Shown here one piece after another: positions 48,936 to 64,000 of a stretch of 64,000 nt of DNA. The notes under the pieces were generated by a model that saw nothing but the letters and a program-made list of their open reading frames with translations, was not told the origin of the DNA and did not search any database. Origin of the DNA: Streptomyces milbemycinicus (GTDB lineage Bacteria > Actinomycetota > Actinomycetes > Streptomycetales > Streptomycetaceae); contig NZ_MUNE01000148.1 in the NCBI RefSeq assembly GCF_002154605.1, forward strand, positions 1 to 64,000, in the 5' to 3' direction. A program made the position numbers and the translations under genes. Every line of letters starts with the position of its first letter. Position 1 is the first letter of the stretch.

Positions 48936-49904
48936 CTACAGGTCGAGCTCCAGCACGGGGGAGGCGGACCGGCTCACGCAGATCATCATCGTGGTGGCGG
49001 TGGGACGTTCGGACGGGTCGATCACCGTGTCACGGTGGTCGGGGATCCCGGCCGTGACCGATGTTTCGCAGCTGCCGCAGTAGCCCTCTTCACAGGAATA
49101 GGGCACGTCCGGCAGCTTCTCGCGGACGACGTCCAGCACGGAACGGTCGGCGGGCACGGTCGTCCGCACCCCCGAACGGCGCAGCACCACCTCGAACTCA
49201 CCCCTCTGCGAGCCGGATCGCTCCGGGAGCCCGGAATCGGCGGGGGCGAAGCGTTCCAGGCGAGGCGTCCGCACTGGGTCCGCGGCCCGGCACAAGGCCG
49301 TCACCGCGTCGAGCATCGGTTGCGGGCCGCACGCGTAGACGGCGTGAGCGGGCGGGGATGCGGCGAGTTCGGCGGCCAGGTCCGGCAGACCCGCCTCGTC
49401 CTGCGGTACGAGTAGCACCCGGTCCCCGCCCAGCGCCACCAACTCCTCGGTGTACGCCAGACGGGACCGATCGCGGGCGCCCAGGACCAGCCGCCAGGGC
49501 AAGCCGCGGGTGGTGAGCTCGCGTGCCATCGGCAGCAGCGGGGTGATGCCGATGCCGCCGGCCAGCAGCAGATAGCCCTCCGCGGGCACGAGCGGGAACC
49601 GGTTGACCGGCCCCCGGACCTTCAGCTCCCGGCCCACCAGGGCGGTGTCGTGTATCTCCCGTGACCCGCCGCGCCCGTCGGGCACCCGATGGACCGCGAC
49701 CGTCCACGACTCGGTGTCCGCGACGTCCCCGCACAGCGAGTAGGCCCGGCGCAGCCCTGAGGGCAGGGTCAGTTCCACGTGTGCTCCGGGTTCCCACGAC
49801 GGCAGGGTGCCGCCGGCCGGCCGGATCAGCCGCAGTTCCACCACGTCGTGGGCGACCCAGCGGGCCTGTTTCACCAGGAGACGTTCGGTGGTCGGTGAGG
49901 TCAT
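48936..49904 (-). CDS. Flavin/2Fe-2S oxygenase reductase (phthalate dioxygenase reductase/VanB type)
   Basis: 322 residues from ATG 49904. Residues about 1-105 are a flavin-binding barrel with RAYSLCGDV, 105-215 an NAD-binding domain with LAGGIGITPLLPMA and YACGPQPMLDAV, and the C-terminus a plant-type 2Fe-2S domain with CEEGYCGSC and a later Cys lost or replaced in the ICVSRS segment (Cys present). This domain order is that of class IA reductases that pass electrons from NADH to Rieske oxygenases. It is the last gene of the run Rieske-ligase-reductase and is the obvious partner of the oxygenase at 51372. Confidence 0.92.
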   Translation of the reverse strand: MTSPTTERLLVKQARWVAHDVVELRLIRPAGGTLPSWEPGAHVELTLPSGLRRAYSLCGDVADTESWTVAVHRVPDGRGGSREIHDTALVGRELKVRGPVNRFPLVPAEGYLLLAGGIGITPLLPMARELTTRGLPWRLVLGARDRSRLAYTEELVALGGDRVLLVPQDEAGLPDLAAELAASPPAHAVYACGPQPMLDAVTALCRAADPVRTPRLERFAPADSGLPERSGSQRGEFEVVLRRSGVRTTVPADRSVLDVVREKLPDVPYSCEEGYCGSCETSVTAGIPDHRDTVIDPSERPTATTMMICVSRSASPVLELDL

Positions 49905-49929
49905 GGGGACTCCGTCGGCGCGAAAGGTG

Positions 49930-51366
49930 TCAGAAGACACGGAAGTACTCCCGTTGCTCCCAGTCGGTGACCTCCTGGTCGAAGCGGCTGATCTCGGCGC
50001 GCTTGATGCTCGTGTAGTAGGACACGAAGTCCTTGCCGAGGCGGCTCGCGAGCGCCTGGTCCGCCTCCAGTGCGTCGAGGGCCTCGCCCAGCGAACGGGG
50101 CAGCGGTTCGGCCCGGGTGGCGTACGGCTCGTCGGCTGCGGGGCCGGGGTGGATGTCGCCCGCCACACCGTCCAGTCCGGCGGCGAGTTGGGAGGCGAGG
50201 TAGAGGTAGGGGTTGGCGGCGGGCTCTCCGATCCGGTTCTCCAACCGCACCGACGCCGGCCCGTCACCGAGCACGCGCACCATCGCCCCGCGGTTGTCGC
50301 ACCCCCACACCGCGCGGTCGGGGGCCAGCGACAGCGAGCGGAAGCGCTTGAAGCCGTTGAGGGTGGGCGTGGAGAACGCGCTCGTGGCCCGCGCGTGCCG
50401 CAGCAGTCCGCCGAGGAAGGCGGTGCCGTACGCAGACAGCGGCGGGCCGGCCGCGGCGCGGCTCCCGTCCTCGGGGGCGAAGACACCGACGCCGTCCCGC
50501 AACACGCTCTGGTGCAGATGCCAGCCGCTGGAGAACACCCCGGGCAGATGGGGGCGGCACATGAAGGTGGCGTGGTGGCCGTGGCGGGCGGCGACCTGCT
50601 TGACGGCGCCGCGCAGCAGCACCATCGCGTCGGCTGTGCCCAGCCCGTCGGCCGGCTGGAGGGTCAGCTCCAACTGGCTCGGGCCGAACTCCACCTCCAG
50701 GCTGCGCAGCGGCAGTTCCAGGCCCTCGAGGTGCGAGCGCAGGAGGTCGAGCATGGGGTCCAGCTCGTCGTACCGCAACTCGCTGAGGTACTGGTAGCCG
50801 TGGTTGAGCATGCCGACCTCGGGCGCGGCGCCGGGCTGTCCCAGATCACCGGGGCCCAGCCGGGGGTCGTCCAGCCGGAAGAGGTGGAACTCCACCTCCA
50901 GGCCGGTGCGGTACGTCATCCCGTCGGCCTGGGCCAGCACCGAGCGCAGTAGCCCTCGTGTGCAGAGCGGGACCGGCGCTCCGGAGGTGAAGCGCAGGTC
51001 ACACAGGAGCCAGCCCGTTCCCGGCGACCAGGGCAGCATCCGGAAGGTCAACGGGTCGGGCACCATGACCATGTCGGCGGCGCCGCGCAGTTCGGGCAGC
51101 CCGAGCGGCGTCTCCTTGGTGAACAGGGGGAAGACGGTCCGCCCGGAGGTGTCCTTGGCGAGCAAGGACGAGGCGATGCCGGTGCCGTCGCGCAGCACGT
51201 TGGGCAGTTCGGCCACGGTGACGGTCTTGCCGCGCAGCAGACCGTGCTGGTCGGCGAAGACCAGGCGCACCACCGTCATTCCACCGGCCGCAGCGCGCTC
51301 GCGTATCTCGCCCGCCGCGGCGGTCTGTTCGGCGCTCCACAGGGCGTGGTGTTCGATGAATCCCAC
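49930..51366 (-). CDS. Glutamine-synthetase-like gamma-glutamyl ligase
   Basis: 478 residues. The start is set at GTG 51366, six bases after the oxygenase stop; a start inside the oxygenase gene is possible. The N-terminal beta-grasp part has VRLVFADQHGLLRGK; the catalytic part has metal-site motifs LEVEFH, EVEFGPSQLEL and GWHLHQS, NGFKRFR, and the closing ENRIGEPAANPYLYLAS. It is shorter and more divergent than the nitrogen-assimilating enzyme, and the context is catabolic, so it probably joins glutamate to an amine, as PuuA does with putrescine, IpuC with isopropylamine, and TdnQ-type proteins with aniline. Known facts concern those relatives; the substrate here is inferred only as an amine. 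Confidence 0.85.
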   Translation of the reverse strand: MGFIEHHALWSAEQTAAAGEIRERAAAGGMTVVRLVFADQHGLLRGKTVTVAELPNVLRDGTGIASSLLAKDTSGRTVFPLFTKETPLGLPELRGAADMVMVPDPLTFRMLPWSPGTGWLLCDLRFTSGAPVPLCTRGLLRSVLAQADGMTYRTGLEVEFHLFRLDDPRLGPGDLGQPGAAPEVGMLNHGYQYLSELRYDELDPMLDLLRSHLEGLELPLRSLEVEFGPSQLELTLQPADGLGTADAMVLLRGAVKQVAARHGHHATFMCRPHLPGVFSSGWHLHQSVLRDGVGVFAPEDGSRAAAGPPLSAYGTAFLGGLLRHARATSAFSTPTLNGFKRFRSLSLAPDRAVWGCDNRGAMVRVLGDGPASVRLENRIGEPAANPYLYLASQLAAGLDGVAGDIHPGPAADEPYATRAEPLPRSLGEALDALEADQALASRLGKDFVSYYTSIKRAEISRFDQEVTDWEQREYFRVF

Positions 51367-51371
51367 GTCGC

Positions 51372-52724
51372 TCAGCCGTCCGTTTCCAGGGGCTGCGCCC
51401 AACTGCTGTCGGCGCGTTGCTTGGCGGTGACGGCGGCCCAGTACTCATGCCAGCCCTCGGTGGGGCCGATGCCGTCGAGGGTGGCCGGGCCCTTGATCCG
51501 GGCGGCTTCCTCGGGGGACAGCACCAGGGGCGGGTCGTCGCCGCGTTCGACGGCGGATATGGCCTCGCCGAGCATCCGCCGGTACATCACGATGGCCTTG
51601 TCGGAACGGCCCAGGTGTTCGCGGGTGCGGTCCTGGACGGCTCCCTGGCCCTCCACCGCCCACTGGTCGTGCACGTTGATGTCGGTGCCGAGGCCGGTGT
51701 ACGTGCTCGTCAGCTGTTCCGCCGGGTCGTAGCCGTAGTTGTTCGAACGGCCGTAGCGCGGGCGGTAGTCGGGCAGGGTGACCGCGCCGACCCGCTGCCG
51801 GCGCATCTCCTGCCGGTCCACCGGGCCGCCGATGCTGGTGAACAGCGCGTACCAGTAGCAGGACGTGTCGTCGATGGGCACGTGCCACTGGGTGATGGCA
51901 GTCTCCGCGTCGAGCGGGATGTGGAAGGCGTGGGGGAAGACCTGGTGGGTGATGCGGACGTGGGTGCGGCTGCCGTCCATCGGCCGGCTCTCGGTGTCGG
52001 TGCCGTCGAGGGTGCGCAGGGCGGTGATGCGGATGCCGTACGGGGTGCGGACGGCGTCGATGTCGGGCCGCCCGTACTCGCGCAGGATCTTCGTCATCGG
52101 CAGTTCGGTGCCCTGGGAGGCGGCGCGGAACTGCTTGCCGTAGCCGTCCTGGGGATCGTCGTCCTGGAAGAAGCGGTGGAGGTAGGAGGCGTGGGCGGGG
52201 TCGATGCCGACTTCCAGGGCCTGGAGCCAGTTGCACTCCAGCAGGCCCTTCCATGCGAACGCGCGGTCGGCGGGCGCCCGGAAACAGTCGAGGGCGGGCA
52301 GCTCCGGCGGCTCGCCGGGGCCGAGGTAGCCCCAGATGATGCCGTTCCGCTCGCGCACCGGGTAGCTGCCCAGCGTGACCCGGGACGCGAGCGTGCTGCC
52401 TACGGGCTCGGCGGGTGTGTCCAGGCAGGAGCCGTCGCGGCCGAAGAGCCAGCCGTGGAAGCAGCAGCGCAGTCCGCCGTCCTCCAGACGGCCGAGCGAC
52501 AGGTCGGCACCGCGGTGCGGGCAGCCGCGGTCGACCAGGCCGAGCCGGCCGCCGTCGTCGCGGAACAGCACCAGGTCCTGGCCCATCACCTTGGGAGCCA
52601 CCAGGGGCCGTATGCCGTCGAGCTCCTCGCTGAGGGCGATGGGCTGCCAGTAGCGGCGCATCCATTCCCCGGCCGGGGTGCCAGGTCCGGTTCGGGTGAG
52701 CCGTTTGTTTTCTTCCTCGCGCAT
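51372..52724 (-). CDS. Rieske non-heme iron oxygenase, large subunit (phthalate-dioxygenase-like)
   Basis: 450 residues from ATG 52724. The Rieske 2Fe-2S motif is CPHRGAD followed 17 residues later by CCFHGW near residue 70-95. The mononuclear iron site is in VGIDPAHASYLHRFF (D-x2-H-x4-H) near 180. No separate small subunit gene is present, which fits the alpha-only phthalate dioxygenase-type oxygenases that dealkylate, demethylate or hydroxylate. Electrons should come from the reductase at 48936. The location beside a glutamine-synthetase-like ligase recalls aniline oxygenase loci, although those enzymes have two subunits. Confidence 0.92.
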   Translation of the reverse strand: MREEENKRLTRTGPGTPAGEWMRRYWQPIALSEELDGIRPLVAPKVMGQDLVLFRDDGGRLGLVDRGCPHRGADLSLGRLEDGGLRCCFHGWLFGRDGSCLDTPAEPVGSTLASRVTLGSYPVRERNGIIWGYLGPGEPPELPALDCFRAPADRAFAWKGLLECNWLQALEVGIDPAHASYLHRFFQDDDPQDGYGKQFRAASQGTELPMTKILREYGRPDIDAVRTPYGIRITALRTLDGTDTESRPMDGSRTHVRITHQVFPHAFHIPLDAETAITQWHVPIDDTSCYWYALFTSIGGPVDRQEMRRQRVGAVTLPDYRPRYGRSNNYGYDPAEQLTSTYTGLGTDINVHDQWAVEGQGAVQDRTREHLGRSDKAIVMYRRMLGEAISAVERGDDPPLVLSPEEAARIKGPATLDGIGPTEGWHEYWAAVTAKQRADSSWAQPLETDG

Positions 52725-52845: not shown

Positions 52846-53394
52846 TCAGACGGTTTGGGCGGCCGGACCGTCCAGCACCAGCAGCGGAGGCAGGTGCCAC
52901 GCGTACGTCGTGACCGTCCAGGCCAGGGCGCCCGACACCGCTTCCGGAAGGCGAGAGCGGGCCCGGCGCGGGGGAGGCGCGGACCGCCCGGCCCCCTCGG
53001 TCGCGTGGACGGCGTACGCCAGCAGACCCGGCCCCACCCCCGCGAGCAGCTCGAACCGGGCCATCGCCCACAGATGGGCGTCGAAGCCGTCGGCGGGGTG
53101 CGCCCAGCGCAGCGGTACGGCCAGCGCCAGCGCACCGGCCGTCGCGGCGAGCAGGGACCGCCACGTCATACGGCGCCGCTCCGGTCGCAGGGCCACCCGG
53201 AGGGCGGGCCAGCTCACCGCGAGGGTGAACGCCGACACGGCGGTGACCAGGCCCGGGGCGGCGTCGGCGGCGTGCGTGTGCGGAGCGTGTACCGGCCCGG
53301 TGCCGCCCGCCGTCGCGGCCGCGGTGAGCGTCGCGGCCACCGCCACCAGCCCCGCCGCTGTCGGCCAGAGCGGCCGCGGCAGGGCCCGGCTCAT
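52846..53394 (-). CDS. Small integral membrane protein, CtaG-like
   Basis: 182 residues. ATG 53394 overlaps the stop of the copper amine oxidase gene (ATGA), so the two are translated together. It has about five hydrophobic segments, a His-rich loop (VHAPHTHAAD) after the first, and WTVTTYAWHLPPLLVLDG near the end, which resembles the WHLP signature of CtaG-type cytochrome oxidase assembly proteins. CtaG-type proteins help load copper. Tight coupling to a copper amine oxidase suggests a dedicated copper-handling role, but similarity is partial and the protein is shorter than typical CtaG domains. Confidence 0.65.
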   Translation of the reverse strand: MSRALPRPLWPTAAGLVAVAATLTAAATAGGTGPVHAPHTHAADAAPGLVTAVSAFTLAVSWPALRVALRPERRRMTWRSLLAATAGALALAVPLRWAHPADGFDAHLWAMARFELLAGVGPGLLAYAVHATEGAGRSAPPPRRARSRLPEAVSGALAWTVTTYAWHLPPLLVLDGPAAQTV

Positions 53395-55358
53395 TCGCAG
53401 CAGTGGTCCGGCGCCCCGGACCCGTGGCCGGCCGCCGCGGGCCGCGGCGCATGGCAGGAGACGGGTGGGGGCACGTCGAGGGCCGGGTTGCGGTCGAAGA
53501 ACCCGTCGGGCTCCAGCCGCAGCCGCGCCCTGGCCACCGGCATCACCGGCCACTCCTCGGGGCGCGGGAAGTGGTGCGAGCCGACGGTGGCCCACAGCAC
53601 CAGGTCCGTGCCGTCCAGCGAGCGGTCCTCCTCCTGCCACTTGTGCACGCCGTCCGCACCCGGCTCGGCCTGGTTGGGGTACTCACCGGCGACGAACCGT
53701 CGGTCCGGGTCGTAGGCGGTCGCCCACAGCTGCCGGCCCACGAACGGAGCGCGGCGGGCGCACACACTGTCCTCCCGCACCGGCAGGACCGCGGTGTTCT
53801 CCAGGTGCACCCGGTACGCCGTCGGTTCGCCCATCCGGTTGCGGGCCTCGGCGCTCTCCACCCGCCAGTGCAGCGCACGCGACGGATCGGTGCGCCGGGC
53901 TCCCTCCGCCTCGCTGAGGATGGGGCGCAGCACGGTCCGGGCGGCGTTGCCGTACGGGTCCAGCTCCGGGTCGGTCTCGTGCTCGGCGGTGACCTCGACC
54001 AGCCGGTTGCGGGGGCCGTCCACGGCCATGTCGAGGCGGACGCTGAAGAAGTGCTGGTGGTTGGTGACCGCGACGTTCGGGGCGACCCGCCGGGCGTAGG
54101 GGGTCTCTTCGCTCTCCGCCACGCCGGTGGCGGAGAGGATGCCGGTCATCTTGATCTCCAGCATCACCGAGCCGTCCTGGTACAGCGACCAGTAGAAGCC
54201 GTAGTCGTAATTGGCCACCGTGGCGAACGCGGAGATGATCAGACGGCGGGACCGGCGCACCTCCGTGCGGCCGCTGCGGCCGTCGTGGTGCTTCCACAGG
54301 ATGCCATCGTCCTCCTCATGCAGGCAGACGGCGTTGGGAATGACCCGGGGGACGCCGTCGCCGCCGAGCACCGCGGCGTCGAAGTAGTGGATGACGCCCA
54401 GGCAGTCGCAGCCCAGGGCCAGGGAGTTGGTGAGCGGGCCCGCGCCGTACTCGCCCCAGTCGAAGAAGTTCTTGCGGTATTGAGTGGAGGCGGTGTCGAA
54501 GTAGGGGACGTACATCTCGTTGACGGCCGCGCGCCGGATCACCTGCCGCGGGCCCTTGCCACCCGCGTCGAAGGTCAGGTCGTGCAGCACCAGGCCCTCG
54601 CGGTGGGTGAAGCCGACCCGCACCGACCAACCCTGCCAGTCGATCCGCTGACCGGTGACGGTGAAACTGGGGCCTTCGGGCTGGACCACCTCCAGGGGCC
54701 GCAGACCCGGCCGGGGCGGCACCACTCCGGTGGAGAACACCCCGGACTCCTGCGACAGCGGAACCACGCCGTGGTCCTCGATGTGCAGGATCTCCATGGA
54801 CTCCATGTCGATGATCGGCACCACGCCCTGCACGGGGCGCGCGTAGCCGTTGTCGTCCTCGGAGGTGCGGTGCCACACGCTGCCCCATGTCAGCCGGCGG
54901 CCCTTGTACTCGGGCGGTTCGAAGCCGCCGATCGACTCCGGGTCCACCATCACCAGCGACACGTCGTGGATGCCGCGCAGCGCCAGCGCCCGCTGGAAGC
55001 GCGGGTCCGCCCGGCAAGCGGCAGCGGCCTGCCGCGCCTCCTCGGAGGAGCAGCCCGGACTGCGCACATCCAGCTCCCGCCAGGCGGTGCTCCGCGGCGT
55101 GTCGCCGAGTTCGAGGCCGACCTCGTACGCGAGGTGCGCGGAGGGGCAGATCACGACCGCGCGGGCCCTCCGGGTGTCGCCGGGGGCGGCACGGCGGGCG
55201 TGGTCCTCGTCCAGTGTCACGCCCCAGAAGCGCGCGTCCTCGGTGACCCGGGCGTCGCCCCGCAGGACCTTGGCGGCGGTGGCCAGTTCGGCCGCGGTGA
55301 GGGGGTCCAGCGGATGCGGTGCGTCCGCCGGTACGGGCTCGGGGGCGAGGGTGCTCAT
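53391..55358 (-). CDS. Copper-containing primary amine oxidase
   Basis: 655 residues from ATG 55358. All hallmarks are visible: catalytic Asp in VPYFDTASTQY, the Tyr that becomes topaquinone in VANYDYGFYW (N-Y-D), copper ligands in NHQHFFSVRLD (HxH) and a third His in TVGSHHFPRPEEW. The enzyme oxidises primary amines to aldehydes with O2, releasing ammonia and H2O2. The C-terminus has an added His/Cys tail (CHAPRP, HGSG, DHCCE). Its aldehyde product can be taken by the aldehyde dehydrogenase at 60867. It lacks an obvious signal peptide. Translation overlaps both neighbours. Confidence 0.95.
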   Translation of the reverse strand: MSTLAPEPVPADAPHPLDPLTAAELATAAKVLRGDARVTEDARFWGVTLDEDHARRAAPGDTRRARAVVICPSAHLAYEVGLELGDTPRSTAWRELDVRSPGCSSEEARQAAAACRADPRFQRALALRGIHDVSLVMVDPESIGGFEPPEYKGRRLTWGSVWHRTSEDDNGYARPVQGVVPIIDMESMEILHIEDHGVVPLSQESGVFSTGVVPPRPGLRPLEVVQPEGPSFTVTGQRIDWQGWSVRVGFTHREGLVLHDLTFDAGGKGPRQVIRRAAVNEMYVPYFDTASTQYRKNFFDWGEYGAGPLTNSLALGCDCLGVIHYFDAAVLGGDGVPRVIPNAVCLHEEDDGILWKHHDGRSGRTEVRRSRRLIISAFATVANYDYGFYWSLYQDGSVMLEIKMTGILSATGVAESEETPYARRVAPNVAVTNHQHFFSVRLDMAVDGPRNRLVEVTAEHETDPELDPYGNAARTVLRPILSEAEGARRTDPSRALHWRVESAEARNRMGEPTAYRVHLENTAVLPVREDSVCARRAPFVGRQLWATAYDPDRRFVAGEYPNQAEPGADGVHKWQEEDRSLDGTDLVLWATVGSHHFPRPEEWPVMPVARARLRLEPDGFFDRNPALDVPPPVSCHAPRPAAAGHGSGAPDHCCE

Positions 55359-56947
55359 CGGGGGTTTCCTTCCAAAAATCCGGCGAGGTCTGCCGCGGCG
55401 CCGCCGTGGGGCGGGCCGTGGAACACGGTGGCGCCGTCGGCGCGTGGATCGGAGGCGCCGTCCAGCCGGCCGTCGGCGGCCAGCCGCACAACCTGGGTGT
55501 GACCGGCCAGGTCGGTGCGGCCGGGAGCGACAACGACCGGTACGTTCGACGGGAAGCCGGGCGTGGCGGCGGGGACGGACCCGGGCTCGGCCAGCAGGGT
55601 CTGCGTTGCGTGGCCGATGTCGCGGGCGCCGACCACCCAGCGTGGCCGGTCCAGCACGGCGGCCGGGTCGGCGGCCGGGTCCATCAGATCCGGCACCGTC
55701 TGGGCGAGGATCTGCGGCTGGGCCCGGCCGCCCTGGCAGCCGGCCGCCAGCAGCAAGTCGGCGGACCGGCCGAGCACGGGGCACAGGGTGTGCGGGGGCC
55801 GCAGCCCGGGGCCGATGAGGGCCGGGTGGCCAGGCAGCAGACTGAAAGCCGAGCCGCGGTTGTGCAGCACGATGCCGGTGTCCGGCTCGCAGATGCCGGA
55901 GCCGAAGGTCTGGTAGACGCTCTGGATCAGAGAGACCGCCAGCCCCGAGGAGTCCACGGCGGTGACCGCGACCGTGTCCCCGGCGGGCCGGAACGGCGGC
56001 TTCGGCGGCCGCGCACCGGCGAGCGGCGCCGGCCGCAGCAGTCCGTCCAAGCCCACCTCCGTGCCGCGTGGATCGCCCAGCAGCCGGTCACGGGCCGCCG
56101 AAGCGTCCTGGCAGCGGGCCGCCAGGAGGCCGGTCCGCCATGGCTCGGGGAGTGTCGCGGCCGCGTCGGCGGCCTCCAGGACGGCCAGCAGGCTCGCGCC
56201 CTGACTCGGTGGCGGCGCGGTCCACCAGCGGGTGCCGAACACGTCCAGCGTCAGTGCCTCGACGCTCTCCGTGCGGTGGGCCGCGAGGTCGCTCGCGGTC
56301 AGTGGGCTGCCGGCCCGGCGCAGCCCGTCCGCCAGTGCCTCGGCAACCGCCCCCCGGTAGAAGGACGACGGATCGTCCGCCAGCGCACGCAGTACGGCGG
56401 CCAGCCGCGGCTGCGGCAGTGGGTCGCCCTCGTCGAGCGGCGCCCCGCCGGGCCCGGTCAGCAGCGCGCTGAGCCCGGGATCCGCGGCGATCCGCGCGGA
56501 CTGTTCGCGCACGGCGCGCGCCAGCCCCGCCGATACGGTGGCACCCTCCTCCGCCAGCGCGGCGGCGTCCCGCAGGGTGGCGGCCAAGGTCCCCGGTGTG
56601 CCATGGGCTTCGGCGAGCTCGGCCCAGCCGGCCACCGCGCCGGGTACGGTCACGGTCTGCGGCCCCTGCGCGGGCATCCGCCGGTCCGCGGCGCGCAGCG
56701 TGTCGACATCGACGTCGTGTGCGGCCGCGCCGGCCGACAGCACCGCGCGCACCGTGCCGTCGGGGGAGTGGACGAGTGCGATCAGGTCGCCGCCGAGAGA
56801 GCATTGGTGGGGATAGACGACGGTGAGGACGACCGCCGCCGCCAGTGCGGCGTCCACCGCGTTGCCGCCCCGCTCCGCCGCCCGCCGGGCGGCCGTCAGC
56901 GCCGCCGGATGCGGCGCGGCCAGGATCAGCCGGGAGGCGGCGGTCAC
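55355..56947 (-). CDS. Gamma-glutamyltransferase family protein
   Basis: 530 residues from GTG 56947, which overlaps the previous stop (GTGA). The N-terminal part has the AERGGNAVDAALAAAV segment and YPHQCSLGGD; the processing site and nucleophile Thr is in PAGDTVAVTAVDSSGLAVSL, which would start the small subunit near residue 325. No signal peptide is present, unlike the usual periplasmic or secreted enzymes, so it probably acts in the cytosol. With the glutamine-synthetase-like ligase in the same locus it may remove the gamma-glutamyl group after the amine has been oxidised, as PuuD-type hydrolases do in the polyamine pathway. Confidence 0.88.
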   Translation of the reverse strand: MTAASRLILAAPHPAALTAARRAAERGGNAVDAALAAAVVLTVVYPHQCSLGGDLIALVHSPDGTVRAVLSAGAAAHDVDVDTLRAADRRMPAQGPQTVTVPGAVAGWAELAEAHGTPGTLAATLRDAAALAEEGATVSAGLARAVREQSARIAADPGLSALLTGPGGAPLDEGDPLPQPRLAAVLRALADDPSSFYRGAVAEALADGLRRAGSPLTASDLAAHRTESVEALTLDVFGTRWWTAPPPSQGASLLAVLEAADAAATLPEPWRTGLLAARCQDASAARDRLLGDPRGTEVGLDGLLRPAPLAGARPPKPPFRPAGDTVAVTAVDSSGLAVSLIQSVYQTFGSGICEPDTGIVLHNRGSAFSLLPGHPALIGPGLRPPHTLCPVLGRSADLLLAAGCQGGRAQPQILAQTVPDLMDPAADPAAVLDRPRWVVGARDIGHATQTLLAEPGSVPAATPGFPSNVPVVVAPGRTDLAGHTQVVRLAADGRLDGASDPRADGATVFHGPPHGGAAADLAGFLEGNPR

Positions 56948-57597
56948 GCCTCGTCCCGCGGCAGGAGCACGGTGCGCGAGGGGGCGGCCTCGGCGCCCTG
57001 CAACGGCACCGGGAGGGAGAGCATGTCGTACACCCCGGCCGGCGTATGCAGCAGGTCGACCACCTCCAGGATCAACACGTCTGCGGCGCACAGCAGTTGG
57101 TGGGTCGGCCAGTCGGTGGTGTGGGCGACGGCCTCGATGCTCAGGTAATCGATGCCCGCGGTGCGCACCCCGGCTTCGATGAGGCGTTCCGCGCCGTCCG
57201 GGGCCAGTCCGACCCACTGCCGGGCCTTCCACGGGCTGCGCAGTACGCCCTCCGAGTTGCTGGTGCGCAGCAGCACGCGCTCTTCGGAGCCGAGGCCGGC
57301 CGCGTCGAGGTCGGCGGCGGTGATCTGCTCCTTCACATGCGTCAGGTCCAGCACCCGCGCGGCGCCGTTGAGAGCGGACAAATCGAGCCGGTCGACCGTC
57401 TTTCCGCCGTCGATGAAGTGGGCGGGAGCGTCGATGTGCGTGCCGGTGTGGGTACCAATGCGCCAGCGGCTCACATTGGAGGCGTCGCCGGCGGTGCGGG
57501 ACTCGACGATCTCCACCTCGGGGCGGCGGCCCCAGTGCAGCATTCCGGGGTGGATCGGCACCGACACGTCGATGGCCTTGTCGAAATCCAGATTCAT
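56944..57597 (-). CDS. Cyclase-family hydrolase (kynurenine formamidase-like)
   Basis: 217 residues from ATG 57597. It has the metal-binding signature HTGTHIDAPAHF near residue 50-62 and the later TAGIDYLSIE. Members hydrolyse N-formyl kynurenine, isatin or related amides and lactams using Zn or Mn. Here it is the first gene of the leftward block after the divergent GntR gene, and the gamma-glutamyltransferase gene overlaps its stop. An amide, formyl or cyclic intermediate of the pathway is the likely substrate. Confidence 0.87.
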   Translation of the reverse strand: MNLDFDKAIDVSVPIHPGMLHWGRRPEVEIVESRTAGDASNVSRWRIGTHTGTHIDAPAHFIDGGKTVDRLDLSALNGAARVLDLTHVKEQITAADLDAAGLGSEERVLLRTSNSEGVLRSPWKARQWVGLAPDGAERLIEAGVRTAGIDYLSIEAVAHTTDWPTHQLLCAADVLILEVVDLLHTPAGVYDMLSLPVPLQGAEAAPSRTVLLPRDEA

Positions 57598-57611
57598 GCA
57601 CTTACCCCTTA

Positions 57612-57676: not shown

Positions 57677-58381
57677 ATGACGCCCCAGACTGATGAGGGC
57701 CCCCTCGTCGACGACATCGCGGCCCGCATTCGCGCGCGGATCATGAACGGCGAGCTGGCGATCGGCAAACCGTTGCGCCAAGCGGCGCTGGCCGCCGAGT
57801 TCGGGGTCAGCCGCACACCGGTGCGCGAGGCGCTGCGCCAGTTGCAGAGCGGCGGGCTGATCGAGGTGCAGCCCAACCGCGGCGCGGTGGTCCGGGTGCC
57901 CACGCCCTGGGAGGTGCGCCAGGCCTACGAGGTGCGCGCCGAGCTGGAGGGGCTGGCCGCCCGGCGTGCCGCCTCGCGTATCACGGGGCGTCAGCTCACC
58001 GCACTGCGGGAGCACAACGCCGTCCTGCGCGAGGCCGCGGAGCGGGCCGCCGGTGAGGAGGCGGCCGCCGGCAGCCCCGCGACCACGGCGGCCAACGACT
58101 GCTTCCACACCGTCGTCTGCGAGGCGGCCGACAACCCTTGGCTGAGCCGGATGATCGACCGGATCAACGAGAGCTTCCCGCGCAATGTCTCCTCGCTCGC
58201 CCTCGCCGGTGACGAGCGCCACCGGCAGCTGAACATCCGGCAGCACGAGCTCATCGTCGAAGCGCTGACCGCCCGGGACGCGGACCGTGCCCAAGAGGTC
58301 ATGCGCGACCACGTCATCAGCTCCGGCGAGCTTCTGACCGCCTGGTACGAGCGCCGCTCCCAGACCGTCTTCCACGGCTGA
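57677..58381 (+). CDS. GntR-family regulator with FCD domain
   Basis: 234 residues from ATG 57677. The N-terminal winged helix has IRARIMNGELAIGKPLRQAA and FGVSRTPVREALRQL, the standard GntR recognition stretch; the C-terminal FCD domain (EVRAELEGLAARRAA, NDCFHTVVCEAADN, LIVEALTARDADRAQEVMRD) has the His and Asp residues that bind a metal and a carboxylate ligand. It is the only + strand gene of the catabolic locus and divides it in two, so it probably represses both halves until an organic acid intermediate appears. Confidence 0.92.
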   Translation: MTPQTDEGPLVDDIAARIRARIMNGELAIGKPLRQAALAAEFGVSRTPVREALRQLQSGGLIEVQPNRGAVVRVPTPWEVRQAYEVRAELEGLAARRAASRITGRQLTALREHNAVLREAAERAAGEEAAAGSPATTAANDCFHTVVCEAADNPWLSRMIDRINESFPRNVSSLALAGDERHRQLNIRQHELIVEALTARDADRAQEVMRDHVISSGELLTAWYERRSQTVFHG

Positions 58382-58428: not shown

Positions 58429-60870
58429 TCACCCGGCACCACCGGGAAGCAGCCGAGCCGGGGACAGGAAGTCCAGGTCCGGGCGGGCGGTCCCGCACAC
58501 GAGATCGGCCAGTGCCTCGCCGATCGCCGGGCCGAACTTGAAACCGTGTCCCGAGCACGCCGACGCCACCAGCGCCCGCTCCACTCCCGGTACCTCGCCG
58601 ACCACGAAACGCCGGTCGGCCGTCATGGTGTAGAGGCAGGTCAGGCTCTCGGTCACCGGGCCGGCACCGGGCAGCACCTGGGCCACCGCCTCGGCGAGCA
58701 GGGCCAGTTCCGCCGCGGTCGCCGCGGGGCGGGGCGCGTCCGGATCCCAGGCCGGGCCGCTGTCCAGCCCCACTTTGAGGCCGCGGCCACCGGTCGCGGG
58801 GAACCCGTACAGCAGCCCTTGCGGCAGATCCACGGAGAAGCTGCCCAGACCGGACGGGCCCAGCGGTCCCGCCAGGTCGGCGGCGAAGTAGGCGTTGACG
58901 ATGCGGGTGACCGTCAGCCGCGCCGCCAGCGAGGGGACCTGGGCCGCCGTCCAGGGACCGGTGCACAGCACCAGGTGCCGGGTGCGCAGTACGCCGTCGG
59001 CGGTGCGCACCACGACCTGGTCGCCGTCCGGCTCCCAGCCGATGACCGGGGTACGGTCCGCCACGGCCGCACCCGACCGTTCGGCCAGCGTCAGCTGGGC
59101 CCGCAAGGTCTCCTCCGCGTCGATGATCCCGGCCCGCGGGTCGTGTACGGCGCCGAATCCGGCGGGCAGCCGGAGCCCCGGGAAGATCCGCGCCGCCTCC
59201 TCGGGGCCGACCTGTCGGCAGCCGGGGCCGCGCAGCGGATCCGGCCGGTCCATCGGCGCCGCGTACAGACCGCCGGTGATGTCGACCAGACGGGTCTTCG
59301 CGGCGTCCTCCAGCTCCTCCCAGGCCCGGTAGGCGGTGTCCACCAGACCGTCCCAGTCGGGATGGGGATAGGCGCGCCGGATCATCCGGGTCGCACCGTG
59401 CGAGGACCCGAGGTCATGGCCCAGGGCGTACTGTTCCAGGCCCAGGACATCGAGTCCGCGCGCGGCCAGCCGGCGCAGGGCGGCACTGCCGTGCACGCCG
59501 AGGCCGACCACGATCGCGTCACGGCACCGGGTGCCACGGCGTGCCGTGACGGGTGCGGGTGCGGGGACAGCGGCGCTGGACCGACGTGCGGGCTCCCGCG
59601 GCGGTGTGGGCGTGCCGTGCAGGCTGACGATCTCCCGCACCGCCTCGACCAGGGCGTCCAGGTCGGCCCTGTCGTTGTAGACGTGCACCGAGGCCCGCAC
59701 CACCTTGGTCAGGCCCCGGGGATCCATGTCCCAGCGGCCGTGCCCCGCCGGCACCGCGATCAGATGGATCCGGCGGCGGGCGAGTTCTCGCTGTACCGCG
59801 CCGGCGTCCAGTCCGTCGACCACGAAGGTGACAATCGCGCCGCCCGCGGCCGGCGGGTCGGTGACGCGCACGCCCGGCAGTTCGGCGAGGTGTTCCCGCA
59901 GTGTGGTGGCGAGCGTCGCCAGATGCCGGGAGACGGTGTCCACGCCCAGGGCGGTCAGGTCCGCCAGAGCGGCACCCAGACCGAGGCGAAGGGCGTGTGC
60001 GGCCTCCCACAGCTCGAACCGCTTGGCGTCCGGCACCAGTTCCCAGCTCCGCTCGGCGGTCCAATGGGCACCCCGGACGTCGGGTGCCTCGGGGGCCAGC
60101 CGGTCCAGGAGGGGGCGGCGGACCGCGAGCAGCCCGGTGCCGCGCGGCGCGCGCAGGAACTTGCGGCCGGTCCCGATGAGCAGGTCGCAGCCGATGGCGC
60201 CGATGTCGACCGGGAGCTGGCCGAGCGACTGTGTCGCGTCCAACAGGAAGGGAACCCCGTGCGCCTGGGCCAACGCGCCGATATCGGCGGCGGGTTCGAC
60301 CAGACCCGAGGAGGTCGGCACATGCGCCGCGGTGACCAGGGCGGCGGGACCGGTGCGCAGCGCCGTCTCCAGTGCCTCCAGTGCCACCGCCCCGTCGGGG
60401 CCGTTGGGCAGCAGCTCGACCCGGACACCGTGGTCGCGTTCGGCCGACAGCAGGTGCAGGGCGCTGCTGACGTAACTGGAGCGAGTGGCCAGCACACGGT
60501 CGCCGGGGCGCAGCCGCAGCGCCGACACGGCGCGATGCCAGCCGGCCGTCGCGCTCTCGACGAGGGCGACTTCCTCCGGCCGGGCGCCGAGGAGCTCAGC
60601 GGTACGTGCGTAGACGGCATCCAGCGCGGGGGCGGCGTCCTTGGCGGCTTCGTAGCCGCCGGACAGGCTTTCGGCGCGCAAGTGGCCGATGACCGTCTCC
60701 ACGGTGACGGAGGCGGGCAGGGCCGCACCGGCGGCGTTGAAGTGGTGGCCGGTGGCGGAGCCCGGCGTGCGGGCGCGCTCAGCCGCGACCTCCAGCGCGC
60801 GGGCGGAGAAGATGGCGGGTGGCGGTGCCGGGTGCGAGGCGGTGGTCCCGGTCGTGGTGGGGGCGCTCAC
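58429..60870 (-). CDS. Fusion: class V aminotransferase-like domain plus sarcosine-oxidase-like FAD domain
   Basis: 813 residues from GTG 60870, which overlaps the aldehyde dehydrogenase stop (GTGA). Residues about 1-420 are a PLP fold-type I class V protein: TGHHFNAAGAALP, ALVESATAGWHRAV, FLLDATQSLGQLPVD, and the PLP Lys in IGTGRKFLRAPRGTG. After a Pro/Ala-rich linker (about 420-447), residues from about 450 form an FAD amine oxidase: VVGLGVHGSAALRRL, SSHGATRMIRRAYPHPDW, and CLYTMTADRRF, whose Cys matches the one carrying covalent FAD in monomeric sarcosine oxidase. No frame change separates the halves. The fusion probably channels an amine or imine between transfer or elimination and oxidation; I know no characterised enzyme of this form. 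Confidence 0.9.
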   Translation of the reverse strand: MSAPTTTGTTASHPAPPPAIFSARALEVAAERARTPGSATGHHFNAAGAALPASVTVETVIGHLRAESLSGGYEAAKDAAPALDAVYARTAELLGARPEEVALVESATAGWHRAVSALRLRPGDRVLATRSSYVSSALHLLSAERDHGVRVELLPNGPDGAVALEALETALRTGPAALVTAAHVPTSSGLVEPAADIGALAQAHGVPFLLDATQSLGQLPVDIGAIGCDLLIGTGRKFLRAPRGTGLLAVRRPLLDRLAPEAPDVRGAHWTAERSWELVPDAKRFELWEAAHALRLGLGAALADLTALGVDTVSRHLATLATTLREHLAELPGVRVTDPPAAGGAIVTFVVDGLDAGAVQRELARRRIHLIAVPAGHGRWDMDPRGLTKVVRASVHVYNDRADLDALVEAVREIVSLHGTPTPPREPARRSSAAVPAPAPVTARRGTRCRDAIVVGLGVHGSAALRRLAARGLDVLGLEQYALGHDLGSSHGATRMIRRAYPHPDWDGLVDTAYRAWEELEDAAKTRLVDITGGLYAAPMDRPDPLRGPGCRQVGPEEAARIFPGLRLPAGFGAVHDPRAGIIDAEETLRAQLTLAERSGAAVADRTPVIGWEPDGDQVVVRTADGVLRTRHLVLCTGPWTAAQVPSLAARLTVTRIVNAYFAADLAGPLGPSGLGSFSVDLPQGLLYGFPATGGRGLKVGLDSGPAWDPDAPRPAATAAELALLAEAVAQVLPGAGPVTESLTCLYTMTADRRFVVGEVPGVERALVASACSGHGFKFGPAIGEALADLVCGTARPDLDFLSPARLLPGGAG

Positions 60871-62324
60871 AGGGCGATCGTGACGCTCTTGAGCTCGGTG
60901 AACCCGTCGACGGCGGCGTCGCCGAGGTCCCTGCCGAGGCCGGACTGCTTCATCCCGCCGAAGGCCACGGCGGGGTCGAACTCGTTGTAGGTGTTGACCC
61001 ACACGGTGCCGGCCTCCAGCGCCGCGACCGTGCGGTGGGCGCGTGCCAGACTGCCGGTCCACACACCGGCGGCAAGTCCGTAGTCGCTGTCGTTGGCCAG
61101 GGCGATCGCTTCATCCTCCGTGTCGAACGGGATGACCGTGGCGACCGGGCCGAAGATCTCCTCCCTGGCGATCCGCATGCCGGGGCTGACGCCGGTGAAC
61201 ACCGTCGGCCGCACGAACCAGCCCGGTCCGGGCAGCGGTTCGCCACCCGCGGCCACCTTGGCGCCCTCGGCCCGGCCCAGGCCGAGGTAGCCGCTGACGC
61301 GGTCGTACTGCTCCTGGGACACCAGAGGACCGATGTTGATGCCGCCCGCCAGCCCGGGGCCGATCCGCAGTGCCTCCACCGCCGGCAGCAGCCGATCGAG
61401 CAGCTCCTTGACGACCGGCCTCTCCACCAGCAGCCTGCTTCCGGCGGTGCACATCTGTCCGGAGTGCCCGAACACCGCACGCACGGCGGCCGGGGCCGCG
61501 GCGTCCAGATCGGCGTCCGCGAAGACGATGTTGGGCGACTTGCCGCCCAGTTCGAGGGTGAGCCGCTTGACCGACGGCGCCGCCGCGGCCATGATCAGCC
61601 GCCCCACCTCGGTGGACCCGGTGAAGGACACCTTGGCGACGTCGGGATGGGCGACCAGTTCCGCACCCGTACGCCCGTCACCGGTCACCACGTTGACCAC
61701 GCCCTCGGGCACGCCCGCCTCCAGGCAGAGCGCGGCCAGCCGCAGCGCGGTGAGCGGGGTCTGCTCGGCCGGCTTGACCACGACCGTGCAGCCGGCGGCC
61801 AGAGCGGGGGCGATCTTCCACGCCGCGATCATGAAGGGGAAGTTCCACGGCAGTACGGCGGCGACCACGCCGACCGGCTCGCGCACGCTGTAGACATGCC
61901 GGTCGGCGCCGGATGCGTGCACAGTGCCCGACAGCCGGGTCGGGGCGCCCGCGAAGTGGCGGATGGCCTGCAGGCCGAGGTCCACATCGCCGCGCGCCCG
62001 CTCGATGGCCTTGCCGTTGTCCAGCGTGTCCAGCACCGCCAGCTCCTCGGCGTCGCGTGCCACCAGCTCGGCGAGGCGCAACAGCACGTCGCGGCGGAGG
62101 CGGGGCGGCAGTCCGCGCCATCGCCGGTCACGGTGCGCGTCGGCGGCGGCCGCCACCGCGGCGGACACCTCCTCGGGACCGGCCTGGGCGATGGTGGTGA
62201 GCTGCTCCTGGGTGGCGGGGTCGAGCACCGGGATCCGCTCCCGCGCGGTGCCCGTGGTCCACTCCCCGCCGATGAGCATGGGCTCGCAGTCCGGCAGCCG
62301 GGGGAGCACGATGCTGGGGTCCAA
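60867..62324 (-). CDS. NAD(P)-dependent aldehyde dehydrogenase
   Basis: 485 residues. TTG 62324 is chosen as start because AGAAGGAG lies 6 bases upstream; ATG further in at MLIGGEW would remove conserved sequence. Motifs: PWNFPFMIAAWKIAPAL, catalytic Glu in LELGGKSPN, catalytic Cys in FGHSGQMCTAGSRL, EEIFGPV and NTYNEFDPAVAFGGMKQSG. The enzyme oxidises an aldehyde to an acid; in this locus the aldehyde may come from the copper amine oxidase or the sarcosine-oxidase-like domain. It is closest in pattern to betaine-, gamma-aminobutyraldehyde- and hydroxymuconate-type dehydrogenases. Confidence 0.94.
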   Translation of the reverse strand: MDPSIVLPRLPDCEPMLIGGEWTTGTARERIPVLDPATQEQLTTIAQAGPEEVSAAVAAAADAHRDRRWRGLPPRLRRDVLLRLAELVARDAEELAVLDTLDNGKAIERARGDVDLGLQAIRHFAGAPTRLSGTVHASGADRHVYSVREPVGVVAAVLPWNFPFMIAAWKIAPALAAGCTVVVKPAEQTPLTALRLAALCLEAGVPEGVVNVVTGDGRTGAELVAHPDVAKVSFTGSTEVGRLIMAAAAPSVKRLTLELGGKSPNIVFADADLDAAAPAAVRAVFGHSGQMCTAGSRLLVERPVVKELLDRLLPAVEALRIGPGLAGGINIGPLVSQEQYDRVSGYLGLGRAEGAKVAAGGEPLPGPGWFVRPTVFTGVSPGMRIAREEIFGPVATVIPFDTEDEAIALANDSDYGLAAGVWTGSLARAHRTVAALEAGTVWVNTYNEFDPAVAFGGMKQSGLGRDLGDAAVDGFTELKSVTIAL

Positions 62325-62389
62325 GGTGTTCTCCTTCTGGGTCGGGCCGCCGCCCCGCGGTCCGTTGTCCTGGGTTCCCGATCCCGGCG

Positions 62390-63238
62390 TCACGCGTGTC
62401 GTCCGGGGCGGTGGGTTGGATCGGGCCAGGGCTCGCGGACCGCGGCGGAGACCGCCCGGGCGGTGGTCAGGACGCAGCGGTCGAACTCCGCCGCGCCATG
62501 GGTCGGGTCCGCGTCGGTGACGTCCCTGCCCCACACCCCCGTCTCGCTGACCTGGTCCATGCGGTAGTCCCAGAAGGAGTCGAGGTCGACATGGGAGGTG
62601 GCCAGTTCCATCCGGACCAGCTCCGGCGCCAGATGCAGCATGACGGAGGTCTCGAAGTAGTTGGCGTGCATCAGCGCCCGGCCGTAGGTGACATGTCCGT
62701 CGACCTCGGGTCCCGGGTACATCGTCACGTATCCCAATGCCCGCACCCGGGCATCACGATGGCGGACCCTCAGCTTCTCGGCCGACACATCGAGCGCGCC
62801 GTTGTTCCAGATGTGCCCGTTGAGCTGGATGAACTGCCGTATCCCGGAGGCGTACAACGAGTCGATGACATCCTCGACGACGGCGATCATGGTCTCCGGC
62901 CGCAGCGCCACCGTCCCGGCGAAGTCGCCGTGGGACGCGGACACTCCGAAGCTCAGGGGCGGCAGGACGGGCACACCGGTCAGGGCGGAGACCCCCAGGG
63001 CGACGGCCTCGCAGATCCGGGTGTCCACCGCGAGCGGGAGATGGGGACCGTGCTGCTCGGTGGCGCCGACGGGGATGATGACGGCGTTCTGGCCCGCGGC
63101 GGTGGACTTCGCGTCCGGCCAGGTCAGCTCCTCCCACAGCACCGGCGAACCGGTCCCGCCCAACCGCGCGGCGAGTTCCGGGACGTCCAGGCCGGTGGGT
63201 ACGGTCCGTCCGGACGGCCCGGTGATGAAGACGGACAT
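62390..63238 (-). CDS. Creatininase-family amidohydrolase
   Basis: 282 residues from ATG 63238, with GGGAGG close upstream. The metal site motif is GATEQHGPHLPLAVDTRI near residue 60-78 (Glu, His and Asp ligands), followed by FGVSASHGDF and QLNGHIWNNGAL, all typical of the family that includes creatinine amidohydrolase and cyclic-amide or formylaminopyrimidine hydrolases. It is 31 bases downstream of the cytidine-deaminase-like gene. A ring-opening or deamidating step on a cyclic amide is likely. Confidence 0.9.
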   Translation of the reverse strand: MSVFITGPSGRTVPTGLDVPELAARLGGTGSPVLWEELTWPDAKSTAAGQNAVIIPVGATEQHGPHLPLAVDTRICEAVALGVSALTGVPVLPPLSFGVSASHGDFAGTVALRPETMIAVVEDVIDSLYASGIRQFIQLNGHIWNNGALDVSAEKLRVRHRDARVRALGYVTMYPGPEVDGHVTYGRALMHANYFETSVMLHLAPELVRMELATSHVDLDSFWDYRMDQVSETGVWGRDVTDADPTHGAAEFDRCVLTTARAVSAAVREPWPDPTHRPGRHA

Positions 63239-63267
63239 GTCTCCTCCCTTCTCGGGGCCGGTGGCGC

Positions 63268-63726
63268 TCACCACCGGCGTCGGCTCTTCTCGGGCAGCAG
63301 GTCCAGGGCGCGCAGGGGGACGGGCTCGTCCCCGTCGACCGTGGTGACCCACACGGTGGCGTCCGGGCAGTAGTCGCTGATCAGTTCGCGGCACACCCCG
63401 CACGGGGCGATGATCCGGAATCGGCCCGCCGGTTTGATCTGCACCGAGACCACCGACACGATGCTCAGCGGCGCCTCGGCGGGCAGGGCGCCCCGGGCGG
63501 TTCCCATGGCCACTCCCTCGGCGCAGATCGAACTGCGCCGGCAGGAACCCTCCACATGGATGCCGGTGTGGACGCGGCCGTCCGCGGTACGCAGCGCCGT
63601 CGCCACCTCGTGGCGGTCCGGCTGCCAGACCCGGGCCAGCAAGGCCTGGGCCGCGGTGAGAAGTTCGGCGTCGCCCGTGCTCATCGACGGCGGGACGGGC
63701 ACGGGGCTGACGTCCGCCGCGCTCAT
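63268..63726 (-). CDS. Cytidine-deaminase-like zinc deaminase
   Basis: 152 residues from ATG 63726, which overlaps the amidohydrolase stop (ATGA); ATG 63684 is an alternative start. The zinc motifs are CAE in SSICAEGVAMG (the Cys-type of tetrameric cytidine deaminases, with Glu as proton shuttle) and PCGVCRE. It is similar in size to cytidine and blasticidin-S deaminases. In a run with a creatininase-type amidase and an amidohydrolase, it probably deaminates a heterocyclic or amidine-like intermediate rather than serving nucleoside salvage. Confidence 0.87.
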   Translation of the reverse strand: MSAADVSPVPVPPSMSTGDAELLTAAQALLARVWQPDRHEVATALRTADGRVHTGIHVEGSCRRSSICAEGVAMGTARGALPAEAPLSIVSVVSVQIKPAGRFRIIAPCGVCRELISDYCPDATVWVTTVDGDEPVPLRALDLLPEKSRRRW

Positions 63727-64000
63727 GACGTCAGGCCCAGCAGCCGGGCCATGTTGCCGCCCTCGACCAGCGCCCGGTCCTTCTCGTCCTCGACCGCCTT
63801 TGCGATCTTCATGCGTTCCAGGTCGAAGTCCGAGCCGGGCCACTCGCTGCCCATCAGGATCTTTTCGGGCCCCAACCGCGTGTAGGCGCGCTTCACGTCG
63901 CTCAGCAATGTCGCCGATGTCTCCAGGTACACATGCGGCTGGCGTTCGGCCACGATGATCGCCTCCGGCACGTTCCACACCGCCCCCATGTGCGCGATGA
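63723..64000 (-). CDS. Amidohydrolase (TIM-barrel, amidohydrolase-2 type), C-terminal part
   Basis: The gene runs off the right edge; the last about 92 codons are visible. PHVYLETSATLLSDVK and KILMGSEWPGSDFDLERMKI give the late Asp/Glu region of the amidohydrolase-2 family, where many members have FGSDWP. The C-terminus is NMARLLGLTS. Members hydrolyse or decarboxylate ring acids (for example ACMSD-like and gamma-resorcylate enzymes). It is the most upstream visible gene of the leftward catabolic run. Confidence 0.82.
   Translation of the reverse strand, partial: IAHMGAVWNVPEAIIVAERQPHVYLETSATLLSDVKRAYTRLGPEKILMGSEWPGSDFDLERMKIAKAVEDEKDRALVEGGNMARLLGLTS

Follow-up and report, generated by a model that had tools for sequence, protein, structure and literature searches.

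Does the gene-rich end of the Streptomyces milbemycinicus DNA analysed here (contig NZ_MUNE01000148.1, positions 1 to 64,000; this whole stretch of 64,000 nucleotides is called the window) encode one catabolic system, and what would that system degrade? From 48,936 onwards, the window holds genes for a single-chain reductase (RED), a glutamine-synthetase (GS)-like ligase (GSL), a Rieske oxygenase (RO), a copper amine oxidase (CAO), a gamma-glutamyltranspeptidase-family protein (GGT), a cyclase-type hydrolase (CYC), a GntR/FCD regulator, a fusion of a pyridoxal phosphate (PLP) domain to a flavin adenine dinucleotide (FAD) domain (PLPFAD), an aldehyde dehydrogenase (ALDH), a creatininase-family hydrolase (CRN), a deaminase-like protein (CDA) and the end of an amidohydrolase (AMH), all on the minus strand except the regulator (Table 1). 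The reading favoured here, with a probability of roughly 0.58, is that they belong to one GntR/FCD-controlled regulon that would import and degrade a nitrogen-rich compound with an aromatic-amine part.

An earlier note, written from the letters of the window, had described an apparently complete, uncharacterised amine-catabolic locus around that regulator. Every gene that it named was recovered by Pfam scans of 18 cluster proteins (8 + 10) and by NCBIfam models for named functions. However, the locus is not complete in the window, since about 8 of its approximately 19 genes lie wholly or mostly past the window end; the amidohydrolase of the note is a real gene, but it starts at 64,496 and has only its 3' end inside. 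The contig runs on to 73,496 (~73.5 kb), and its continuation past the window edge (L005, contig C384, 60,000–73,496) carries on the minus strand, by Pfam, AMH, two ATP-binding cassette (ABC) ATPases (ABCa and ABCb), an alpha/beta hydrolase (ABH), two permeases (PER1 and PER2), a binding protein (SBP), an MBL hydrolase (MBL) and an amidase with an allophanate-hydrolase C-domain. The importer is a peptide-type ABC system whose binding protein, encoded at L005 9,219–10,871, belongs to the family SBP_bac_5. Because the continuation adds this importer and further hydrolases, the earlier reader had the lower part of a longer system in view.

Conservation and a common promoter palindrome

The search for the same gene set in other genomes, which the earlier note had proposed as a check, found it in nine Streptomyces assemblies, namely the window's own genome, G011, G022, G040, G076, S. 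geranii, Streptomyces sp. NRRL F-525, S. hokutonensis and S. cylindrosporus, of which five were read fully or nearly so (one of them reordered) and four partly. In G011, SBP to RED is collinear with the window at 76–92% identity (RO 88%), with MBL at the far end. The single-contig genome G076 shows the order MBL-SBP-PER2-PER1-ABH-ABCb-ABCa-AMH-CDA-CRN-ALDH-PLPFAD-(GntR)-CYC-GGT-CAO-RO-GSL-RED. G022 holds AMH to GSL together with MBL, while its importer operon, SBP-PER2-PER1-ABH-ABCb-ABCa, lies on another contig and is 73–86% identical to that of the window, with an exact copy of the motif TTGGATCCAA, discussed below, before SBP. G040 has the set in a reshuffled order; the importer, ABH, AMH, CRN and CDA are 73–93% identical to their window counterparts, whereas RO, GSL, GGT, CYC, PLPFAD, ALDH, CAO and GntR are 47–62% identical, and these two identity classes mark the copy as a mosaic. 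The four named strains were read as 21-kb loci plus the SBP sites; CRN or ALDH to RED lies inside the 21-kb loci, SBP is further upstream, and MBL stands beside SBP in three of them.

RED orthologues are 73–84% identical in six Streptomyces loci (G011, G076, L039–L042), and the GntR orthologue is 60–88% identical in the eight other cluster loci. RO DNA compared across seven assemblies gave no identical pair (85.8–95.4%). None of the cluster stretches of G011, G022, G040 and G076 yielded the amidase of allophanate-hydrolase type. The oxygenase occurs in 4 of 61 genus genomes and AMH in 5 of 121, which are those four oxygenase bearers plus G076; 80 genomes sampled from the order yielded the full PLP–FAD fusion twice, in the window's own and in G180, which was taken to be NRRL F-525 from an identical 3-kb locus.

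In the gap between GntR and CYC, TTGGAT-N19-ATCCAA is present in the window and at seven other loci of like layout (L017, L127, L028, L039–L042). This motif was taken from a printed alignment of the gap and was first counted on the same loci where it was found, and a palindrome scan of the gap yielded no repeat shared by the loci; the genome-wide counts and the unlinked importer operon of G022 test it more independently. At no more than one mismatch, TTGGATCCAA was found in the window and its continuation only in the GntR–CYC gap and at contig position 70,921, some 50 bp upstream of SBP, the remaining 48.9 kb of the window being free of it. For the 24.6-kb cluster region, a first-order random model predicts 0.13 sites at one mismatch, and exact sites numbered 0 in 40 simulations.

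Exact copies of TTGGATCCAA genome-wide numbered one each in G000, G011 and G076, three each in G022 and G040, and 2, 1, 1 and 2 in the four named strains, giving 15 in the nine genomes; 13 of these 15 lie upstream of cluster genes or their orthologues (SBP 9, RO 2, MBL 1, AMH 1). The oxygenase and the motif were counted in the same 61 genus genomes, where a genome was called cluster-free if it had no oxygenase match at 1e-60. Exact copies occur in eight of these genomes, four cluster bearers and four others, and the 57 oxygenase-free genomes together hold five, in four genomes. The sites upstream of cluster genes, that of the unlinked importer operon included, and their scarcity in relatives without the oxygenase thus make it likely that the locus is a single GntR/FCD regulon, in which the GntR protein would bind TTGGATCCAA. 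The earlier description of a catabolic-looking locus around one such regulator is borne out, and for its co-regulation the palindrome and the unlinked operon are independent evidence from sequence.

That the genes are chance neighbours with separate roles is barely credible. Such a view would account for the presence of numerous enzyme families that no evident pathway unites and for the importer that sits elsewhere in G022, but nine assemblies keep the genes together, one of them (G040) in a different order, and the genes have a rare palindrome in common that is also found at that unlinked importer; the recurrence and the palindrome together indicate that the cluster is more than chance. It is likewise improbable, though less so, that the cluster is biosynthetic and serves antibiotic tailoring rather than catabolism. 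Large open reading frames (ORFs; 1,642 and 745 aa) at 18.8–26 kb of the window, ORFs of 1,272 and 3,141 aa near the G040 copy that by eye resemble nonribosomal peptide synthetases, and the odd PLP–FAD fusion all fit a biosynthetic role; the binding-protein-dependent importer under the same palindrome, the flanks that differ in other cluster copies and the enzyme families of the locus, which are typical of breakdown, argue for a catabolic one.

The oxygenase–ligase pair

A scan of 84,980 species genomes with RO returned at least 586 relatives, of which the best 80 were kept; together with seven plasmid loci, four genus relatives and the window they form a set of 92 loci. GSL is present in 91 of the 92, and in 89, window included, it lies directly downstream on the same strand; the sole locus without it, L050, ends 292 bases past RO. 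The distances of RO and GSL are correlated over 91 pairs (0.92), which partly reflects common descent. Among the neighbours of the pair at 91 loci are a PcaR/PobR-like regulator (61), benzoate-CoA ligase (28), BoxC (24) and BoxB (19), and more rarely a 4-hydroxylaminobenzoate lyase (PnbB; 3) and a PcaK-like transporter (2), counted at E up to 1e-20 over half of the query, with many loci coming from related Bradyrhizobium and with a PcaR query that can also match other IclR regulators. One of the two PcaR/PobR-like regulators scanned passes the model cut-off. We read these neighbours as a sign that the pair elsewhere would serve aminobenzoate chemistry.

The closest structures to RO in the PDB are isophthalate and phthalate dioxygenases (9ina, 7fhr, 7fjl). 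Of 91 sequences, 90 keep C68, H70, C87 and H90 (one row is gapped there), and all 91 keep D175, H178, H183 and D353; their roles are presumably those known from the family. R257 is kept in all 91 as well and stands in the alignment at the position of R244 of phthalate dioxygenase and R234 of isophthalate dioxygenase, in a numbering deduced from the PDB chains. These two arginines bind the substrate carboxylate, and a change of R234 abolished activity (PMC12445078). The second carboxylate arginine of phthalate dioxygenase, R207, is not kept in RO, and Pfam found no small-subunit oxygenase family among the 18 cluster proteins.

For GSL, the best solved relative is the 1-naphthylamine ligase NpaA1 (8wwu, E 2e-123, 416 bits), followed by a match of 195 bits (1e-56), and the glutamate–methylamine ligase 9qur scores 155 bits; by these match scores, GSL falls into the organic-amine (GoaS) branch of GS-like ligases. 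K83, E236 and E238 are invariant in 91 of 91 sequences, and the two glutamates that hold the amine in NpaA1 (E232 and E234, numbered as chain minus 15) are kept. At NpaA1 V201, GSL has Tyr, as does AtdA1. Of the residues lining the NpaA1 tunnel, F75 is replaced by Lys, again invariant in all 91 sequences, W235 by Phe, and F86 is kept. The ligase Lys and the oxygenase Arg would suit an arylamine with an acidic group, which suggests that the amine glutamylated in this system carries such a group.

An ipu-like role on an aliphatic amine, which the ligase, oxygenase and GGT would glutamylate, hydroxylate or dealkylate in its alkyl part and then hydrolyse, has a small but real chance of being right. 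The isopropylamine (ipu) route uses an IpuC-like ligase and a GGT-like hydrolase; a role of this kind would explain why a GGT-family protein stands in place of an AtdA2-type amidotransferase, why an amine oxidase and ALDH share the operon, and why GSL lacks one of the three aromatic residues in the NpaA1 tunnel. However, the ligase is far nearer NpaA1 than 9qur, the phthalate-type oxygenase keeps the carboxylate Arg, and the pair elsewhere adjoins aromatic-acid genes.

N. resinovorum SA1, which degrades sulfanilate, also carries the pair on its plasmid pSA3 (RO 56%, GSL 52% identical), near a gene annotated as maleylacetate reductase, and this copy would act on sulfanilate; SA1 is named in PMC5632844 as another degrader.

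Two further neighbourhoods of the pair are recorded as side observations. On plasmids L032, L035 and L037, a nitroreductase and a DUF4863/PnbB protein (4-hydroxylaminobenzoate lyase) lie near it, with a Pfam check in L037. In Nitratireductor (L033, 20,978–25,747), FAD oxidoreductases, a cytosine deaminase and a protein of the creatininase family that is 38% identical to CRN lie near it, which echoes part of the Streptomyces set.

Proposed pathway and the other enzymes

From the gene set, its conservation, the common palindrome, the RO–GSL pairing and the invariant RO Arg and GSL Lys, all read directly from the letters, we infer every reaction, direction and substrate of the pathway that follows. 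The peptide-type ABC system would import the compound (step 1), which the hydrolases ABH, MBL, CRN, CYC and AMH and the deaminase CDA would cut or open (step 2). In step 3, CAO and ALDH would convert a primary amine to an acid, and the PLP–FAD fusion may handle an amino-acid-like or N-alkyl part. In step 4, GSL would join L-glutamate to an aromatic amine bearing an acidic group, RO with RED would dioxygenate the resulting gamma-glutamyl-anilide to an ortho-diphenol, as in aniline systems, and the GGT-family protein would remove excess gamma-glutamyl product, which is the job of AtdA2 elsewhere. The most likely substrates of step 4 are 4-aminobenzoate or a close relative such as 4-aminophenylacetate. 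Protocatechuate was considered as the exit product and set aside, being possible for four of five genomes and left unsupported for the window's own.

Several observations weigh against the reading of one regulon with an aromatic-amine substrate. Two of the 15 exact TTGGATCCAA copies (G022 C247 and G040 C67) stand beside unrelated ORFs, and a control with TTGGATCCAA written backwards gave 0 in five cluster genomes, 6 in 61 genomes and 2 in five. G040 and S. cylindrosporus have the palindrome before the oxygenase, but the window lacks it there, its best site having 4 mismatches. RED was not found in the searched stretches of G040, where MBL was not found either, or in those of G022. The neighbour counts of the pair are raw counts, made without a random-position control. 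The pSA3 gene annotated as maleylacetate reductase gave no such NCBIfam match, its best hit being another model of iron-alcohol-dehydrogenase type under its cut-off. The kinship to the sad system, taken up in the last section, rests on its description and on the SA1 copy, from which SadA is deduced to be of this Rieske type. Lastly, the Streptomyces stretches yielded no PcaR-like regulator, Box protein, benzoate-CoA ligase or PnbB, so that it is the conserved pair itself that carries the aminobenzoate reading over to Streptomyces.

A wider version of the favoured reading is put forward tentatively, and we consider it somewhat less probable than not. It holds that the locus encodes an undescribed pathway, so far seen in Streptomyces only, for a whole natural product with an acidic arylamine and alkyl- and N-alkylamine parts, in which glutamate would be a temporary handle for ring dioxygenation, the fused PLP–flavin enzyme would treat the side chain, and a near-unique TTGGATCCAA operator would control the genes. 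If true, this would show the natural role of the sad-type oxygenase–ligase pair, a question raised in PMC5632844. The oxygenase relatives are common, yet a function in print for such a pair was found only for the industrial compound 4-aminobenzenesulfonate (PMC5632844), and the neighbourhoods point to aminobenzoate-like substrates. The rare palindrome is a candidate reporter and a route to further regulon members, having already led to the unlinked importer, and enzymologists would find useful targets in the fused PLP–flavin protein and in a phthalate-type oxygenase that works with a glutamyl ligase.

Among the remaining enzymes, CAO is nearest to phenylethylamine oxidase of the solved structures (E 1e-131) and passes the primary-amine-oxidase model PRK11504 (747 bits, cut-off 651), while the best NCBIfam model for ALDH, phenylacetaldehyde dehydrogenase, stays under its cut-off (538 of 850 bits). 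The PLP half of the fusion has EgtE as its nearest named function and is also near cysteine desulfurases; at 183 bits, under the cut-off of 400, it is not an EgtE by the model test. The FAD half passes the N-methyltryptophan oxidase model PRK11259 (279.5 bits, cut-off 257), which does not imply that substrate. The fusion forms a single open frame in each of the 9 cluster loci, with a linker from short to about 200 residues, and the neighbours of stand-alone relatives of its PLP domain showed no common theme among 3 of 459 plasmid records. A kynurenine route was dropped, as the PLP domain is nearest to EgtE and cysteine desulfurases.

CYC matches 8hmo, 1r61 and 4co9 in the PDB and reaches 115 of 223 bits with the arylformamidase model. 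It had raised an indole-acetate/isatin route, which was rejected: IadDE, the oxygenase for indole acetate, is given as an alpha/beta enzyme, and at 1e-8 CYC matched six PDB sequences, not one of which bears the name isatin hydrolase. CRN scores 122 bits against the NCBIfam creatininase equivalog (cut-off 235) and is thus not a creatininase proper by this test. CDA matches cytidine and blasticidin-S deaminases in the PDB (best E 1e-9); for the breakdown of folate or a peptidyl nucleoside, considered from the deaminase and the para-aminobenzoate-like part, no evidence was found. GGT, in which no signal-like N-terminus was seen by eye, occupies the place that AtdA2 has in aniline loci and may do its job here; the naphthylamine work used a ggt-deleted host (PMC11335346).

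The features and their coordinates are collected in Table 1; the scripted ORF calls used a rough GC-frame score and missed true genes in places. The 182-aa hydrophobic ORF has a 44% relative at the same place in S. cylindrosporus (L042, 9,300–10,000), and the five other loci compared gave none; its letters resemble, by eye, copper proteins of the CtaG type, for which Pfam gave no confirmation. In G076 (L126, 7,500–9,700), an ORF directly upstream of MBL looks by eye like a fusion of a flavin oxidase and a ferredoxin reductase, a possible extra redox partner. Left of the cluster, a transposase remnant (integrase core rve_3 at 45,456–45,962) and a lower GC content (0.65–0.67, window 44,000–50,000) suggest an insertion-rich edge. 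Elsewhere in the window, a weak PS-DH match at 1–300 (21.2 bits, under the cut-off of 23.7) and the two long ORFs at 18,788–25,972 possibly belong to a modular polyketide synthase.

Table 1. Features of the locus, with positions in the window unless stated otherwise
Feature	Position	Strand	Basis or remark
RED, single-chain reductase: NAD-binding domain and C-terminal 2Fe-2S, VanB/phthalate-reductase layout	48936..49904	-	Pfam Fer2, NAD_binding_1
GSL, GS-like ligase, probably gamma-glutamyl-arylamine ligase	49930..51402	-	Gln-synt_C; start uncertain, 51,366 or 51,402
RO, Rieske oxygenase, phthalate/isophthalate dioxygenase type	51372..52724	-	Pfam Rieske + LigXa_C
182-aa hydrophobic ORF, start overlaps CAO stop (ATGA)	52846..53394	-	no Pfam family over cut-off
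CAO, copper amine oxidase	53391..55358	-	Cu_amine_oxid E 2e-143
GGT, gamma-glutamyltranspeptidase-family protein	55355..56947	-	G_glu_transpept E 2e-89
CYC, cyclase-type hydrolase, kynurenine-formamidase-like	56944..57597	-	Pfam Cyclase
Candidate operator TTGGAT-N19-ATCCAA	57612..57642	.	right part is a one-mismatch TTGGATCCAA at 57,633
GntR/FCD regulator, divergent from CYC	57677..58381	+	Pfam GntR + FCD
PLP-FAD fusion: EgtE-like class-V PLP domain and sarcosine/N-methyltryptophan-oxidase-like domain	58429..60870	-	Aminotran_5 fused to DAO
ALDH, aldehyde dehydrogenase	60867..62369	-	Aldedh E 5e-175; start codon uncertain
CRN, creatininase-family hydrolase	62390..63238	-	Creatininase E 5e-63
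CDA, cytidine/blasticidin-S-deaminase-like protein	63268..63726	-	dCMP_cyt_deam_1 24.7 bits, cut-off 25
AMH, amidohydrolase-2 protein	63723..64000, continues to 64,496	-	Amidohydro_2 E 5e-31; only 3' end inside window
Amidase with allophanate-hydrolase C-domain	L005 11,775-13,463	-	Pfam; 4-base overlap with MBL start in window strain

Relation to known systems

The earlier note did not know the combination of genes, and neither this combination nor a glutamyl route for 4-aminobenzoate was found described among the papers listed in searches of the open-licence literature; as these cover open-licence papers only, a paper on either may exist. The word uncharacterised thus suits the whole set, but fits the core less well, where the type of oxygenase and the pairing come closer to a known kind. 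Parts of the set have known relatives: phenylethylamine oxidase and phenylacetaldehyde dehydrogenase are nearest to CAO and ALDH, which here stand inside a larger regulon, and EgtE and the monomeric sarcosine/N-methyltryptophan oxidases are the nearest characterised relatives of two halves that are here fused in one chain.

The Puu pathway resembles the locus in its kinds of part, a gamma-glutamyl ligase, an oxidase, an ALDH and a gamma-glutamyl hydrolase, and the earlier note had seen a Puu-like part here. That did not hold up, as the gamma-glutamylputrescine synthetase model NF045547 gave 231 bits (cut-off 650), PuuC 424 (cut-off 850), and Pfam found a GGT-family protein and no PuuD-type gamma-glutamyl-GABA hydrolase among the 18 cluster proteins. 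It is therefore quite improbable that these genes form a Puu-like pathway for polyamines or monoamines together with passenger genes, as the joint presence of a GS-like ligase, an ALDH, an amine oxidase and a GGT-family protein might suggest; the tight pairing of the ligase with an oxygenase speaks against it as well, and membership of Puu was rejected on these grounds.

Aniline and 1-naphthylamine systems (atdA, tdn, npaA) follow the logic of glutamylation and then dioxygenation (PMC11335346, PMC4539516), and the ligase here is clearly related to NpaA1; the likeness to aniline loci that the earlier note had seen in the ligase-oxygenase-reductase core holds for the ligase. However, aniline loci have large and small oxygenase subunits and an amidotransferase, whereas this locus has a phthalate-type oxygenase and a GGT-family protein; since neither a small oxygenase subunit nor an AtdA2-type amidotransferase turned up among the 18 cluster proteins (Pfam gave no GATase or Peptidase_C26 match), membership of the atd type was rejected. 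For the oxygenase type and the gene pairing, the resemblance is closer to the sad kind.

The sad operon encodes a 4-aminobenzenesulfonate dioxygenase and a glutamine synthetase, and its original substrate was probably a natural compound of similar structure (PMC5632844). SadA and SadB of strain PBC have the accessions WP_009515254.1 and WP_009515256.1. The likeness of this operon is that genes for an oxygenase, a GS-like ligase and a redox partner go together to treat an aromatic amine that bears an acidic group (PMC5632844). In the window, a Rieske oxygenase gene adjoins a GS-like ligase gene with RED alongside as redox partner, and both proteins are akin in sequence to the pair of the sulfanilate degrader SA1. 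The sad reaction itself turns 4-aminobenzenesulfonate into 4-sulfocatechol. The differences are that the reductase here is a single chain, whereas the proteobacterial loci examined have separate ferredoxin and FAD-reductase genes, and that the Streptomyces pair is embedded among about 16 further genes. The oxygenase–ligase core is thus of an already known kind, in a new setting.

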